From assembly GCA_012523035.1 (NCBI GenBank), contig JAAYJH010000114.1:1-42205 (forward strand): 42,205 nt of DNA, given 5' to 3'. The DNA comes from Fibrobacter sp. (GTDB lineage Bacteria; Fibrobacterota; Fibrobacteria; Fibrobacterales; Fibrobacteraceae). Shown in pieces: positions 17,396-41,599 of this stretch. Numbering within the stretch: the first letter of the stretch is position 1; every line of letters starts with the position of its first letter. Made by a program: the position numbers and the translations under genes. Under the pieces are notes generated by a model. It worked only from the letters and a program-made list of their open reading frames with translations, ran no database searches and was not told the DNA's origin.

Positions 17396-18753
17396 TGAAT
17401 ACCTCCATGGTTATAGTAGCGGTAGAGCACATCGGACTGTGAAATAGCCTTTATACTGAATCGCACTTCGTCTAGTTTAAAATTCAAGTTTTCTTTTCCA
17501 AAATAAATAGCTTCGTCGTTTTCTTCCCATTGCTGGATGTTGGTTGTTTGAGTGGCCACAAGATCTCCATTGAGATACAAGTTGATTTGAACGCCATCCC
17601 ATACTACAATGGTGTGTACCCATTGTTGAAGAGGCATGCTTTTGGGAGCAATAACCGCATTTTCACAATCGAGGAGTTTGCCTTGACCGTCAGCAATAAA
17701 AAATGCCAAAGAGTTTTGTTTTACACCGCACTCATTTTTGATCACAGCTAAACTAAAGAGACTTTTGTTTTCTGTTTCTCCGTAAGCGAGTTTGCCAATT
17801 AAGTTTTTACGATAACTTAAAATGGAATCTATCTCATTAAAATCTTCGATATAAACAAGGGCTTCCATAGTAAAGCTAGAGGTGTTATTTAAGCTTCCAC
17901 GATCATTTTCAATGACAACAAAGTCTGAGGCTCCGTTAAAAACAAGGGCATTGGATTTCACTCCTTTATCTAAATAAACATCTCCATAAACCACACCAAT
18001 ATCTGCACGGCCACGAGCGTCATAGATGTATTTTGTTTGAGAGTTTTCTTGTAGAACATCCATAGGCCACCAACTAACCAGTCCATATTCTACTGATACA
18101 GGTATTTCTATGCTAACTAGCTCTTGTGAGTTTTCAGAATGTAAAAGTTTTGGAGGTTCTTCTATTTGTGAAAGAGGTCCAGAAGAAATTAAATAGTCAG
18201 GATTAGAAAAATCCACCCAAAAATAAGAGTCATAATATCGACTCAGGTCAGGAGATTTTACATAAACAAAATGTGAACCCATGGGAATCGAGTCTATAAT
18301 AAAAAAGCCTAAACTATCGCTTGTAGCCTTCCAATCAGTGCCGGGCAAGGATATCTCTATACTTTGATAAGAGCTGTCTCCACTCAACTTAGTGTGTCCA
18401 GAAAAGCGAGTAATACTTTTAAGAGTATCTTGTATATTCAAAGAAATACCTTTATATTCAATAATTTGGTAAAAAGCTTGTTCTAAAGATTTCCCAGAAA
18501 CACCATAAAAACCAGGCTCTTTTATTTCAAAATTAAAGTGTCCTTCCCTGTCAGTGGTATCTGTATAACTCAAAGAACTATCGTTAAAAGCACGCAAAGA
18601 AACGGGAACACCGTTAGCGAGTTTATTGTTAGAATCATATAAAACTCCAGCAATAGAGTTGGTCTCTTCGGTGACTCCTCCAGCAATTTTTCCCTCACAA
18701 CTCCATAAAAATAGAGCCATGAACAATAAAAATATATATTTCATGAGCTTCAT
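17392..18753 (-). CDS. Surface lipoprotein with carboxypeptidase-like and LamG-type domains
   Basis: A 453-residue lipoprotein: signal segment and lipobox LWSC with Cys19 as the acylated residue. Two carboxypeptidase regulatory-like beta-sandwich units follow (SIAGVLYDSNNKLANGVPVS near 32-52, and RFSGHTKLSGDSSYQSIEIS near 110), then a LamG/concanavalin A-like domain from about residue 225 (YGLVSWWPMDV, LVFNGASDFVVIEND, TMEALVYI, VHTIVVWDGVQINLYLNGDL, LDEVRFS). LamG domains bind glycans or proteins, so cell-surface attachment or polysaccharide recognition is plausible. It overlaps its neighbours by 4 bp on both sides and so is coupled to the TIGR02147-type regulator and the PAS protein. I see no catalytic motif. 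Confidence 0.85.
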   Translation of the reverse strand: MKLMKYIFLLFMALFLWSCEGKIAGGVTEETNSIAGVLYDSNNKLANGVPVSLRAFNDSSLSYTDTTDREGHFNFEIKEPGFYGVSGKSLEQAFYQIIEYKGISLNIQDTLKSITRFSGHTKLSGDSSYQSIEISLPGTDWKATSDSLGFFIIDSIPMGSHFVYVKSPDLSRYYDSYFWVDFSNPDYLISSGPLSQIEEPPKLLHSENSQELVSIEIPVSVEYGLVSWWPMDVLQENSQTKYIYDARGRADIGVVYGDVYLDKGVKSNALVFNGASDFVVIENDRGSLNNTSSFTMEALVYIEDFNEIDSILSYRKNLIGKLAYGETENKSLFSLAVIKNECGVKQNSLAFFIADGQGKLLDCENAVIAPKSMPLQQWVHTIVVWDGVQINLYLNGDLVATQTTNIQQWEENDEAIYFGKENLNFKLDEVRFSIKAISQSDVLYRYYNHGGIQ

Positions 18754-19800: not shown

Positions 19801-19808
19801 GGGTCTTT

Positions 19809-19923
19809 CCTCCCTTCTAGAGTTTTTGAGAAAAGATTTCAAGAGAAGGGAGGTCGGGTTTTCTGTTCCTATCTTTTTTGGACTTTAAAGCCAAAAAAGG
19901 ATATCCACGACACCCCCTAAGGC
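19809..19923 (+). repeat. Structured intergenic element, copy 1
   Basis: The element has two stems. Stem 1 is CCTCCCTTCT (19809-19818) with AGAAGGGAGG (19844-19853), a perfect 10 bp. It is followed at once by TCGGG, then stem 2, ATCTTTTTTGG (19871-19881) with CCAAAAAAGGAT (19891-19902), with one bulged base. It ends CCCCTAAGGC at 19923. Copy 2 at 41278-41463 has the same order with compensatory changes in both stems. From memory, similar sequences with GGTCGGG and ATCCCTAA ends occur between genes in Bacteroidota-related genomes, but I cannot confirm that here. It may be a non-coding RNA or a mobile palindromic element. Confidence 0.7.
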
Positions 19924-19966
19924 AAAAACAGAGGGAAATCTTTTTGAAAGTCTTAGAAAAGATTTC
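19831..19966 (+). repeat. Competing inverted repeat with two alternative partners
   Basis: AAAAGATTTC occurs at 19831-19840, inside the loop of stem 1 of the element, and again at 19957-19966. GAAATCTTTT at 19935-19944 is perfectly complementary to both over 10 bp. The local hairpin (19935-19966) has a 12-nt loop; the long-range pairing would cross the element. Only one can form at a time if this is RNA. Confidence 0.5.
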
Positions 19967-20184: not shown

Positions 20185-23100
20185 ATGCAGAATTTAGATA
20201 CATTTTTGTTTTTTGATATTGAATGGAATCCAAGTACAGATAAAGTTCGAGAGTTTGGTTTTGTGCTTGCAGATAAAGAGCACAAGGGTCCTTATCCAAA
20301 TCCTTTATTAGAAGCTTTTGAAGAGGCAAAATATGTGGTGGGTCATAATATTTTAGACCATGATTTACCAGTTTTAAGTCGGTTGTATAAATTAAAAGTT
20401 TCAGAAGAATTGGTCCTTGACACTCTATTGTTGTCTTCTTTATTGTTTCCTTTAAAGCCTTTTCATGCCCTAAGAAAAGAATACATTCAAAGTCCAGAAG
20501 AGGCTTTTAATCCGCTTTTAGATGCTCTTTTGGTAAAAAAATTACTTTTAGAGTGCGTGAAAAAATGGGATACTTATGCGTGGCAATTGCAAATCTTGTT
20601 GTGGATGTTTTTAAGAAAAGAGACGGGTTTAGCTCCTTTTTTTAATTTAGTGACGATCAAAAATAAAGAGTCTAGGGAGGCCCAAAAAGAAGTCCAACAG
20701 TGGTTTCAAAGCCATTATCGGTCTAAAATTTGCTTTCAAAAGCCTTTTCAAGAAGAATGGAAACTATATAAGGTGGAGTGGGCTTTTTTACTCGCGTTGT
20801 TTTTTGAAGAGGGTGAGAGTGATTTTTTGCCGCACTGGATACAAAATAAATACCCTGCACTGGATGAGATCTTAAAGAATCGCCGACTTGTTTCTTGCAA
20901 AAATAAAAACTGTGCTTATTGTTCTAAAATCCTAGATCCTAAAGTACAGCTTAAAAAGTATTTCAATTACACCGAGTTTCGACGCTTTTCAAAAGAAGAA
21001 GAGACGCCATTGCAAGAAATTGTAGTGCAGTCCGCAATGGACAAAAAATCTTTTTTGGCGGTGTTTCCAACTGGAGGAGGTAAAAGTTTAACCTTTCAGT
21101 TGCCAGCTTTGATTGCAGGAGATTTGCTAGGGGCTTTGACCGTGATTATTTCTCCTATTCAAGCGTTGATGAAAGATCAAGTGGATGTTTTAAGTATGCG
21201 ACACCAGATAGATCAGGCGGTGTATATTAATTCTATGTTAAGCCCTTTGGAGAGAGCCCAAGCTTTTGAGGATTTATATGAAGCTAAAAAAAATATCTTG
21301 TATATTGCCCCAGAATCTTTGCGTTCAGAATCGATTTTTAAGTTGTTGTCGAATCGACGCATTGAGCGTTTTGTGCTAGATGAGGCCCATTGTTTTAGCT
21401 CTTGGGGGCATGATTTTAGAGTGGATTATTTGTATGTGGCTGATTTTATCAAAGATTTGATGCAAGCAAAAAACATTAAAACAGGGATTCCCGTCAGCTG
21501 TTTCACCGCGACTGCCAAAAAAACAGTGATCCAAGATATTCAAAATTATTTCAAAACTCGGTTGGATTTAGATCTAGAGCTTTTTAGCACAGATGCCAAA
21601 AGGAATAATCTAACTTATGAGTTTTTGCCCGCTTCTGTTGATGCTAAAGATAGACAGGCAGTGCTTTTGAATGTGCTTAAAGATGTTGAAAGGCCAAAAA
21701 TTGTATATAGCTCTACTGTGGCGGATACGGTAAAAGTGAGTTCCTATTTAAAAGAGCATGGCTTACGAGCTGCTGCCTATAACGGTCAAATGGATACAGA
21801 GCTAAAAATCCAGCTTCTAGAAGATTTTCAAAACGAAGAAGTCGATACAGTGGTGGCGACTACGGCGTTTGGCATGGGAGTGGATAAAGATAATGTAGGC
21901 TTGGTGGCTCATTATAAAATTTCTTCAACATTAGAAAATTATGTGCAAGAAACAGGGCGAGCGGGTAGAGACCCTAATATCCAAGCCCATTGTGTGACGC
22001 TTTATAACGAAGCGGATTTGAATTCTAATTTTCAATTGTTGCACTTTTCGACAATGACGCATTACCAAGTGAGTAGTGTGTGGAGGTATCTGAGCAGCCT
22101 TGCCAAAAAACAAAAAAAGATAACTATGTCGGCCCTTGAAATTGCTGATAAATGTGGGTGGACAGAAAAAGAAGAAAATATGCAGGCATTGATGACAAAA
22201 GTTCGGACGGCTATTTTGATATTAGAAGAGCAAGGTTTTTTGTACCGTAAAAGGAATAAATCCTTGATGTATGCGACCTCGAGCACAGTGCATAATGTGG
22301 AAGAAGCCAGAAAAAAATTAGGAGGAGATGCTGTAGATGTTTTGGGCAGTGATGAGAATATTGCATTTAGGATTATTCGATTGATAATTTCTAAGCGCTG
22401 GACTAGAGAGCCAGAGTGTAGTTTAGATGAGTTATTGCATTCACTAGGTTTAGAGCGAAAAGCGGCAAGGAGTGGTTTGAGACTTTTGCGCAGCAAAAAA
22501 ATGCTAGAAGCCAAAAACGATTTGAGTTTAAAGGTGACGCACACAGGGCCTTTTACTAGTAAAAGTGTTTTGAATCGAAGTAAAGAATTAAAAAACACGC
22601 TCCTGACTCAGTTTCAAGATTTTCAAGTGGGTGAAAAAATGTTTTTGAATTTGTCGAAGTTAAATTCGATGATAGAATCAAGTGCAAATACCACACGGAA
22701 AAATTTATTTGTGTTACGAGGGATTTTGAGATACTTGGCTCACGAAAGTGTGGCTGATATTCGATTGATTGAAGCCGGGAGGCAGATTTACCAAATAGAG
22801 TTTTTGATAGAGGTTGAATTGCTTTCTAATAAGTTAGAAAAGTCCTGGTCTTTGTTTGAAAATTTAGTGGATGTTTTGCTTCAAAAAAGTGTTAAAAATG
22901 ATCCTTTAGTTTGGACTTCTATAGATGAATTAGTAGGGCTTGTGTATGAACAAGAGGCTATAAGCTCTGTAGAAAAACAAAAAAATATAGAATTTGCCTT
23001 GCTTTTTTTACACTCTATTTCTTCGATTGTTTTGGACAAAGGTTTACTGGTTTTTTATAACGCGATGCAAATCGAAGTGAACGAAAATAAAAGCAATCTC

Positions 23101-25197
23101 CAGTTTAAAGAAGAAGACTTTGCACTTATAGAACAGCATTATCAAAAAAAAGCAGAAGCTATTCACGCTGTTGGAGAGTATTCTCGATTGATGATAGAAG
23201 GGGATACCAAGGCGGCAGAAAAACTTTTAGGAGATTATTTTATTGAAGACCCAGAAGTTTTTAGAATGCTTTATTTAGGAGGCATAGATTATAGCACGAT
23301 GGCTTCTAGTGCACTTAAAAATAAAATTGAGGATGTGGATGAGGACCAACGAAAAGTAATTCGAAGCAGGATGAAACATATACTGGTCGCTGCGGGCCCG
23401 GGGTCTGGAAAGACGCACTTGTTGGTGCACAAAGCGGCTTCTTTAATATGGTTAGAAAAGACTAAACCAGATTCTATTTTAATGCTCACTTTTACAAGAG
23501 CTGCTGCTAAAGAAATCAAAAAACGACTACTGAAGTTAGCAGGTCCTTTGGCTTATTCGGTGAATGTGAGTACTTTTCATGCGCTGGCTTTTTCTATTTT
23601 GGGGCTCCAAGGCTCCAAAGAAAGCTTAAGCAAAAGAGTGATTAGTAGTGCTGTGGAGTTGATAAAATCTGGAGAAGAATTATCACTGGGAGTGCCTAGT
23701 GTTATTTTGGTTGATGAGTTTCAAGACCTATCAAAAGATCAATATGAACTTTTAAAGGTCCTTTATAATTTGGGAGAAAAGGAGCCAAGGGTTATCATTG
23801 TTGGCGATGATGATCAAAGTATATTTGCTTTTAGAGGTGGAAATCCTATCTATTTTAGACACTTTGAAGATGAGTTTTCACGAGTTCAAAAGCATTTTTT
23901 AACTAAAAACTATAGGTCTTTACCTAAAATAGTCAATTCAAGTAATATTTTGCTAAAAGAACTTCGTCATCGAGTGAAAAGTGATTTGCTTTCTGTTTCA
24001 CAAAAAAGTGGAGCCGCCTCTTTGAGTTTTTATGAAGAAAAAGATCCCTCTTTATGTTCTTATATGGCAGCATTTTTGGCAGAGAAACAGTTAATGGAAA
24101 ATCCCGATGAAAGCTGTGCTATCCTATCATTTAGAAATCAAGAGCTGTATCTAACGGCGGCCAAATTGGAAGATTTAAAAATGCCTTATCGATTGATTAA
24201 GGGTTCCGAAATGAGACGGTTTAATTTAGCCGAAACAAGAGAATTGAATTACTTTATTGAATATATTTCTAAGCAAAATACAGTGGGGAAACGACCATGG
24301 AGTTTCCAAGAGTTTAATAATTTACTTTTACAGGTACAAAAAAAATATAAAAACCTAAATTCTCCTTATAATTGGGACTTGCTTTTGAAGATTGGAGAGG
24401 AGTTTTTAAAAGAAGAAAAAGAATTAGATCAACATGGAGTGGTGTTTAGTAGTTTCATGAGCTATTTGCAAGAAACTGTGATAGAAGATTTTTCTGGAAA
24501 AAATAAAAATTTGATTTCTGTGGGGACCATGCACAGTGCTAAGGGTTTAGAGTTTGATCATGTGTTTTTGTCTTTAGGAGATTGGAGCCCTGATTCAAAA
24601 AATGAAGATAAAAAACAAGAGGATTTTAGGCTCCTTTATACAGCGTGTACTCGTGCTAAAAAGTCTATTTGTGTGTTGGGCCACAGTCAAAAACTTCCTA
24701 AAAACTGGTTAGAAACTTTTACCATAGAGAAGTTCTCACAAAAAATAATCCATCCAACAGAATTGAGTGTAGAGCTTTCCTTAAAAGACATTGACTTGGG
24801 CTTTTATTTAACCAAAAAGGCAAAGAAAAATCAAGAGAAAAAACAAAAAACTTCGGCAAAGACTAAACTTAACTCTTCTGAAATAGAAGATGAAAATGTA
24901 ACTGAAAAACTGATTTTACAAAAGCAAGTACTTCAAGATAAAATTCAAAACATTGCCTTAAGAGAAAAGTTTAAACTGAAAAAAGTGAAATACAACAACT
25001 ATGCTTTGGTTTATGATGGTGAGGTGTGGGCTTATTTTTCTAAATCATTTAGAAACGAAGTGTTTGATGCTTTGTTAAGAAAACAGATGAAACCTGTGAG
25101 TGCAGTTCTGGACCAAGTGGTTCGCTGGCGTTCTGATCAAGGCGAAGAAGTTTGGGTACCTTTGTTTAAGGTTTTATTTAAAACTGGAAGTAAATGA
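20185..25197 (+). CDS. Exonuclease-RecQ-UvrD triple-domain DNA helicase
   Basis: A 1670-residue fusion. Residues 1 to about 125 form a DnaQ-like DEDD exonuclease (FFDIEW with Asp11/Glu13; VGHNILDHDLPVL with Asp60; NPLLDALLV with Asp113). A small Cys cluster follows (CKNKNCAYC near 235-245). The RecQ helicase begins near 275: FPTGGGKSLTFQLPA (Walker A about 294), LDEAHCFSSWGHDFR, TAFGMGVDK and QETGRAGRD. A UvrD/Rep helicase starts near 1050: AAGPGSGKTHLL (Walker A about 1068), LTFTRAAAKEI, VDEFQDLSKDQ, GDDDQSIFAFRGG, KNYRS, TMHSAKGLEFDH and LYTACTRAKK. Both motors look intact and move 3'-5' in their families. The C-terminus ends in a Lys-rich linker and a small basic domain. The role is probably DNA repair or restart; a defence role is possible but unsupported. 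The 3' end overlaps the convergent MBOAT gene by 20 bp. Confidence 0.92.
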   Translation: MQNLDTFLFFDIEWNPSTDKVREFGFVLADKEHKGPYPNPLLEAFEEAKYVVGHNILDHDLPVLSRLYKLKVSEELVLDTLLLSSLLFPLKPFHALRKEYIQSPEEAFNPLLDALLVKKLLLECVKKWDTYAWQLQILLWMFLRKETGLAPFFNLVTIKNKESREAQKEVQQWFQSHYRSKICFQKPFQEEWKLYKVEWAFLLALFFEEGESDFLPHWIQNKYPALDEILKNRRLVSCKNKNCAYCSKILDPKVQLKKYFNYTEFRRFSKEEETPLQEIVVQSAMDKKSFLAVFPTGGGKSLTFQLPALIAGDLLGALTVIISPIQALMKDQVDVLSMRHQIDQAVYINSMLSPLERAQAFEDLYEAKKNILYIAPESLRSESIFKLLSNRRIERFVLDEAHCFSSWGHDFRVDYLYVADFIKDLMQAKNIKTGIPVSCFTATAKKTVIQDIQNYFKTRLDLDLELFSTDAKRNNLTYEFLPASVDAKDRQAVLLNVLKDVERPKIVYSSTVADTVKVSSYLKEHGLRAAAYNGQMDTELKIQLLEDFQNEEVDTVVATTAFGMGVDKDNVGLVAHYKISSTLENYVQETGRAGRDPNIQAHCVTLYNEADLNSNFQLLHFSTMTHYQVSSVWRYLSSLAKKQKKITMSALEIADKCGWTEKEENMQALMTKVRTAILILEEQGFLYRKRNKSLMYATSSTVHNVEEARKKLGGDAVDVLGSDENIAFRIIRLIISKRWTREPECSLDELLHSLGLERKAARSGLRLLRSKKMLEAKNDLSLKVTHTGPFTSKSVLNRSKELKNTLLTQFQDFQVGEKMFLNLSKLNSMIESSANTTRKNLFVLRGILRYLAHESVADIRLIEAGRQIYQIEFLIEVELLSNKLEKSWSLFENLVDVLLQKSVKNDPLVWTSIDELVGLVYEQEAISSVEKQKNIEFALLFLHSISSIVLDKGLLVFYNAMQIEVNENKSNLQFKEEDFALIEQHYQKKAEAIHAVGEYSRLMIEGDTKAAEKLLGDYFIEDPEVFRMLYLGGIDYSTMASSALKNKIEDVDEDQRKVIRSRMKHILVAAGPGSGKTHLLVHKAASLIWLEKTKPDSILMLTFTRAAAKEIKKRLLKLAGPLAYSVNVSTFHALAFSILGLQGSKESLSKRVISSAVELIKSGEELSLGVPSVILVDEFQDLSKDQYELLKVLYNLGEKEPRVIIVGDDDQSIFAFRGGNPIYFRHFEDEFSRVQKHFLTKNYRSLPKIVNSSNILLKELRHRVKSDLLSVSQKSGAASLSFYEEKDPSLCSYMAAFLAEKQLMENPDESCAILSFRNQELYLTAAKLEDLKMPYRLIKGSEMRRFNLAETRELNYFIEYISKQNTVGKRPWSFQEFNNLLLQVQKKYKNLNSPYNWDLLLKIGEEFLKEEKELDQHGVVFSSFMSYLQETVIEDFSGKNKNLISVGTMHSAKGLEFDHVFLSLGDWSPDSKNEDKKQEDFRLLYTACTRAKKSICVLGHSQKLPKNWLETFTIEKFSQKIIHPTELSVELSLKDIDLGFYLTKKAKKNQEKKQKTSAKTKLNSSEIEDENVTEKLILQKQVLQDKIQNIALREKFKLKKVKYNNYALVYDGEVWAYFSKSFRNEVFDALLRKQMKPVSAVLDQVVRWRSDQGEEVWVPLFKVLFKTGSK

Positions 25198-41225: not shown

Positions 41226-41599
41226 AGTTTAGCATCAAACTATAAAACAGCTTTTATAAATCGAATCAAGGGCCTTCCCCGCCCTTATTCATATTGACAA
41301 TCCCTTATTTTGCAATGAAATCGCCAAACATGAACTCGAAAAGCAAAATAAAAAGACAGAAGGGCGGGTCGGGCTTTCCACTCCAATCTTTTTTGTTTGA
41401 AAGCCTAACAAAAAAACTAGACACGCACCAACAAAAAAGGATTTCCATTACAATCCCTAAGGCAATCATTTCAAACGGAATCTCCTTAAGAAACACAGTC
41501 AAAAACAAACGCGTTTAAAGCATTCAAGCCCTTTAAAACAAATTTTCTTAATAATCTTATAGAATTCAATCCATAAAAGAAAAATAGTTGCAAAAAGTA
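41226..41599. other. Non-coding stretch after pgpH
   Basis: No credible gene. After pgpH there is an AT-only hairpin (TATAAAA at 41241-41247 with TTTTATA at 41252-41258), then the structured element copy 2 (41278-41463), then about 135 bp of AT-rich DNA before the tRNA promoter. Confidence 0.65.
41278..41463 (+). repeat. Structured intergenic element, copy 2
   Basis: Stem 1 is CCCGCCCTT (41278-41286) with AAGGGCGGG (41360-41368), followed directly by TCGGG. Stem 2 is ATCTTTTTTGTT (41386-41397) with AACAAAAAAGGAT (41430-41442). It ends ATCCCTAAGGC at 41463. Compared with copy 1, stem 1 has a T-A to G-C swap and stem 2 changes GG/CC to GTT/AAC, both keeping pairing. The stem-1 loop is longer (73 nt) and contains its own hairpin (TTATTTTGC with GCAAAATAA). 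Confidence 0.7.

Follow-up and report, generated by a model that had tools for sequence, protein, structure and literature searches.

The window analysed here, a 42,205-nucleotide stretch of Fibrobacter sp. DNA (contig JAAYJH010000114.1), contains two copies of a structured element (Table 1). The gene at 20185-25197, just downstream of copy 1, encodes a 1670-aa protein that joins two helicase halves, one of RecQ type and one of UvrD type, and one gene of the window falls in TIGR02147, which is named as a Fibrobacter succinogenes paralogous family. An earlier note on this DNA had described the two copies as sharing the order stem 1, TCGGG, stem 2, CCCTAAGGC, with compensatory changes in both stems. 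Indeed, both copies are present in the window with this order of blocks, stem 1 changing from CTCCCTT/AAGGGAG to CGCCCTT/AAGGGCG (a T-A pair becoming G-C) and stem 2 from TTTTTTGG/CCAAAAAA to TTTTTTGTT/AACAAAAAA. The note overlooked that the functional strand is the minus strand, that the CCCTAAGGC end pairs with GGGCCTTCC on the far side to form a closing stem, and that the true limits of the copies are those of Table 1. Its description of a two-copy element holds inside the window but not genome-wide: the genome (2.2 Mb in 125 contigs, 99.6% complete) carries 13 copies.

Table 1. Parts of the two element copies in the window.
Feature	Position	Strand	Basis
Copy 1, full Flavo-1 element, 121 bp	19803..19923	-	RF01705 match and alignment of the 13 copies of this genome
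Copy 1 closing stem, 5′ arm GCCTT	19919..19923	-	
Copy 1 hairpin 1 (Rfam Flavo-1 core; stem 2 of the earlier note)	19856..19917	-	
Copy 1 hairpin 2, CCTCCCTTC..GAAGGGAGG (stem 1 of the earlier note; outside the Rfam model)	19809..19853	-	
Copy 1 closing stem, 3′ arm AAGAC (C-A mismatch to the 5′ arm at one position, minus strand)	19803..19807	-	
Copy 2, full Flavo-1 element, 192 bp	41272..41463	-	RF01705 match (63.3 bits) and alignment of the copies of this genome
Copy 2 closing stem, 5′ arm GCCTT	41459..41463	-	
Copy 2 hairpin 1 (Rfam Flavo-1 core)	41371..41457	-	
Copy 2 hairpin 2, CCCGCCCTT..AAGGGCGGG, long loop	41278..41368	-	
Copy 2 closing stem, 3′ arm AAGGC	41272..41276	-	

Both copies match, on the minus strand, the Flavo-1 RNA of Rfam (RF01705), described by Weinberg et al. 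2010 (PMC2864571), and both cover its 76-position model end to end. Copy 2 scores 63.3 bits (E 1.1e-11, at 41363-41468), above the curated covariance-model cut-off of 42 bits; copy 1 alone, with 37.4 bits (E 2.7e-6 within its stretch, at 19848-19928), falls short of it but has every block in common with the 12 other copies of the genome. Both copies are thus members of a known family. The earlier note had assigned the element to no known class, wrongly, and had itself set a match to a named Rfam family as what would count against novelty; such a match did occur. The covariance model that it had proposed was built, and pairing is kept in further copies. When folded singly as DNA, the two window copies only modestly beat their shuffled versions (z -1.5 and -2.5), and the case is therefore carried by comparative evidence. 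The element is far beyond chance, given the E value of copy 2, the 13 copies in the genome and the pairing seen across 36 sequences.

Alignment of the 13 copies showed that the repeat unit is longer than the Rfam model. It consists of a closing arm (GCGTT, GCCTT or GTGTT), an A, hairpin 1, a GA linker, hairpin 2, one base, the closing 3′ arm (AACGC, AAGGC or AACAC) and a CC tail. The two arms change together, and the closing stem therefore covaries within a single genome. Hairpin 1 (GGG..CCC, with G- and A-rich internal loops) is the Rfam part, with the same internal loops; hairpin 2 (CCCGCC..GGCGGG) and the closing stem GCCTT..AAGGC are both missing from RF01705. The full element is a three-way junction of closing stem, hairpin 1 and hairpin 2, and the full-length model explains the orphan-RNA look of the published hairpin.

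In a wider sample, the 5-bp closing stem (GCGTT/AACGC, GCGTG/CACGC, GCCTT/AAGGC and similar types), which is followed by a single-stranded CC-AAAT tail, pairs exactly in 133 of 134 parsable copies; its last position is split evenly between T (68/135) and G (67/135), matched by A or C. Across 36 aligned copies, 96.3% of cells hold standard pairs, compared with 80.8% for shuffled partners and less than 50% for slid partners. Double-changed cells number 89, versus 27 in shuffles, and double changes occur at 11 of the 18 pairs. Since the search pattern fixes some columns, this result is carried by the free ones, namely the closing 3′ arm, position 15-46, the apical stem and hairpin 2. Such strong covariation, within the genome and across phyla, supports the proposal of the earlier note that structure, of RNA or of hairpin DNA, is selected. 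In most copies the stem of hairpin 1 is perfect except for a conserved C bulge or C-A mismatch and for two internal loops of 3x3, of which the outer mostly reads GNA/GNA; these features could be contact points for a protein.

We found Flavo-1 in only 3 of 37 genomes of the same family, a patchy distribution. A wider search with the core pattern GCGTKAGGGAT..AGCG..AGCGNANAGCCCGACC matched 12 viral contigs and at least 119 stretches in named genomes from several Bacteroidota orders, as well as one planctomycete MAG, where contamination is possible. Per-genome counts made with a new full-element covariance model (R1) ranged from 1 to at least 150 in 20 genomes picked as carriers, and from 0 to at least 129 in 38 genomes of the Aquimarina group. 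A blastn search with a Flavobacterium copy gave matches in plasmids and phages; the same search with the element sequences of the Fibrobacter genome gave no match in plasmids or phages. One 9169-bp viral contig with Mu-like phage genes (L063) has two inverted copies, one at each end, and may simply break at the repeat.

The ends of the element are sharp, as judged by flank composition in 135 copies, with bias outside the element restricted to two or three pyrimidines next to its 5′ end and about six bases after the 3′ CC (AAATAA-like). Among 175 copies we detected no target duplication: direct repeats at the ends gave no signal beyond that expected by chance from 336 combinations. A search for extended inverted ends found none, no split elements with large cargo in the hairpin loops were seen, and no clean empty sites were found among Flavobacterium, Aquimarina and Bacteroides plasmid relatives. 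Half-elements are almost absent (267 left and 268 right halves, with one clear truncation).

Placement relative to genes was assessed with crude ORF calls (longest open frames). Convergent gaps are enriched (30% versus 13% expected by length) and divergent gaps depleted (15% versus 24%). The median distance of copies is 58 bp to gene 3′ ends and 148 bp to 5′ ends, and it is the tail side of the element that comes nearest to gene 3′ ends (median 28 bp versus 82 bp for the other side). Orientation to genes is nearly random, with 28 copies in the same and 46 in the opposite orientation in tandem gaps, and orientation to replication is random (71:70 on seven Flavobacterium chromosomes, assuming a terminus opposite dnaA).

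The types of base pair bear on whether RNA or DNA forms the fold. Of the 3276 pairs of closing stem, core and hairpin 2 in 197 distinct copies, 28 are G.T and 6 A.C (G.T 0.85%), and a small tRNA control from the same loci (15 genes) gave 29 G.U among 323 pairs (9.0%); G.T is thus about tenfold rarer in Flavo-1 than G.U in tRNAs. G.T nevertheless exceeds A.C (p 0.0002), and therefore one strand is the folding one. An initial count of 4 G.T and 7 A.C among 648, read as no strand preference, was withdrawn on this larger set. The C-A 'mismatches' of apical hairpin 1 (255 cells), which appear to be a conserved non-canonical feature, were excluded from the comparison. Low wobble together with one-strand folding is as expected for DNA that folds as a single strand, or for perfect arms that are often renewed, and is compatible with RNA.

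Comparison of related sites pointed to exchange of parts. Downstream of one conserved Flavobacterium gene, the model found the element in 14 of 30 genomes, mostly at the corresponding intergenic site; there the core is kept, and hairpin 1 and hairpin 2 are replaced by unrelated hairpins. Identical hairpin-2 sequences also occur with many hairpin 1s and with both closing-stem types, which suggests that copies may exchange hairpins. Bacteroides plasmids carry one or two copies each. Plasmids p5482 (L323; element at 18640-18728) and pBxylCL11T00C03-1 (L331) are 99.96% identical over 2.7 kb, and this homology stops, with single-base precision, at the element's GCG end, beyond which they are unrelated. 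This is a single event. In more than 30 other plasmids, the shared sequence is limited to the p5482 element and about 110 bp on its tail side. In other plasmid comparisons the element is kept with no break. In several large Bacteroidales plasmids (L325, L326, L333, L336-L338) a Flavo-1 copy is retained upstream of a gene for a JAB-domain (RadC-like) protein, with flanks only about 80% alike.

These properties resemble those of REP elements of the GTAG and CGTC families, which are extragenic and palindromic, have high and variable copy number, favour gene 3′ ends and convergent gaps, and have a short unpaired tail at one end (PMC3733652). Flavo-1 is likewise extragenic, repeated and near gene 3′ ends. 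It differs in size and shape, with 65-190 bp and three arms as against the single hairpin of 20-40 bp of REPs (PMC3733652), and in the start, where Flavo-1 has a base-paired GCNT and REPs have a GTAG or CGTC tag that is unpaired (the 5′ GCGT/GCCT is base-paired in 133/134 parsed copies). Unlike GTAG-type REPs, Flavo-1 is not linked to RAYT genes. Y1 transposases (IS200/RAYT, PF01797) are absent from three carriers, G000, G072 and G077, with 13, 49 and 33 copies, and no element core lies beside the PF01797 loci L029-L058. Y1 transposases were accordingly rejected as the mobiliser for lack of co-occurrence; in several carriers they are not the mobilising protein, or have been lost. CGTC REPs share with Flavo-1 the lack of a known transposase (PMC3733652). 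Transposase genes between paired inverted Aquimarina copies were also considered, and the four stretches read held only ordinary genes.

Like MITEs, Flavo-1 is non-autonomous, dispersed, palindromic and near genes, but it lacks target-site duplications, and its inverted end is just 5 bp long. With integron attC sites Flavo-1 shares a single-strand fold specific to one strand, a conserved base that includes unpaired nucleotides, and a variable terminal hairpin. Unlike them, it forms a three-way junction, has ends GCGTT..AACGC instead of RYYYAAC..GTTRRRY, and was not seen in cassette arrays.

Taken together, the compensatory structure, sharp ends, lack of target duplication, variable copy number, occurrence on plasmids and viral contigs, and concentration near the 3′ ends of genes amount to REP-like behaviour. 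We consider it probable that Flavo-1 is a dispersed, non-autonomous, REP-like DNA repeat that folds in single strands and has been mis-filed as an sRNA. This suggests a longer, three-armed relative of REPs, scattered in Bacteroidota, some other genomes, plasmids and phages, and not a dedicated small RNA. The repeat is extragenic and measures about 65-190 bp, and one of its strands adopts a fixed three-way junction; the structure would form when the DNA is single-stranded, a putative structure-specific protein would recognize the fold and copy or exchange it between sites, and copies would otherwise be tolerated downstream of genes. Several observations count against this reading: neither a mobilising enzyme nor a clean empty site was found, one-strand folding (G.T over A.C) is also expected of RNA, half-copies are nearly absent, unlike in many dead repeats, and low wobble could also arise by renewal of perfect arms. 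A bolder version, in which Flavo-1 represents a new class of single-strand DNA element that is mobile or recombines, with a putative structure-specific enzyme that exchanges hairpins and with a role as breakpoint for module exchange in Bacteroides plasmids, seems doubtful. If Flavo-1 is a DNA repeat, a common Bacteroidota repeat family with its own mobilising or exchanging enzyme becomes testable.

The enrichment in convergent gaps and near gene 3′ ends would suit a cis-acting element at mRNA 3′ ends that stabilises transcripts or limits read-through, its hairpin being selected in read-through RNA. Any hairpin sequence would then serve, in keeping with hairpin swapping. We nevertheless regard this as unlikely, because no T-run follows the element on either strand (the 3′ flank is AAATA and the 5′ flank T/C-rich, therefore A/G-rich on the other strand), both orientations occur in tandem gaps, and the exact base conservation of the junction would be left unexplained. 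An intrinsic terminator was rejected on the same flank composition (135 copies). Quite unlikely is a trans-acting sRNA gene in several paralogous copies, the RNA junction being protein-bound or pairing with targets; strand-specific conserved unpaired bases, the excess of G.T and the Rfam type 'Gene; sRNA' speak for it, and the rarity of G.U-type pairs relative to tRNA, the copy number of up to at least 150 per genome and the inconsistent gene orientation speak against it. In the F. psychrophilum transcriptome, moreover, Flavo-1 matches show no distinction between sense and antisense relative to transcribed regions, and many lie outside them (PMC9723704), which speaks against a consistent transcript. 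Finally, a site for site-specific or structure-dependent recombination that shuffles modules, especially in plasmids, and does not spread itself would account for the p5482 breakpoint, for the wholesale hairpin differences around a kept core in Flavobacterium and for one hairpin 2 with many hairpin 1s. It is very unlikely, given one clear breakpoint event, no recombinase family shown to co-occur and the position of most compared plasmid copies in uninterrupted conserved backbone.

Rfam has classed Flavo-1 as an sRNA since 2010, and it is counted as one of the most abundant sRNA families of bacteria (PMC9029176); the literature searched gave no account of its function. Neither the pair statistics nor the placement nor the copy number seen in this analysis supports the sRNA type, and should Flavo-1 prove to be a dispersed DNA repeat, its listing as an sRNA family and the genome annotations built on it mislead. 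New here are the complete architecture, an occurrence that extends beyond Bacteroidota, and evidence that the label 'sRNA' is probably wrong.

Two further observations concern the neighbourhood of individual copies. At L028 (G007:C143), a short Flavo-1 variant lies near an ORF that, judged by eye, apparently contains a reverse-transcriptase-like YVDD stretch. In F. aquidurense (L134, 4563-4680), a Flavo-1 copy has close to it another repeat, self-complementary and about 110 bp long (GTCATTTCGAGGAACGAGAAATCTC..), which occurs at many sites in Flavobacterium genomes and resembles CGTC-type REPs.
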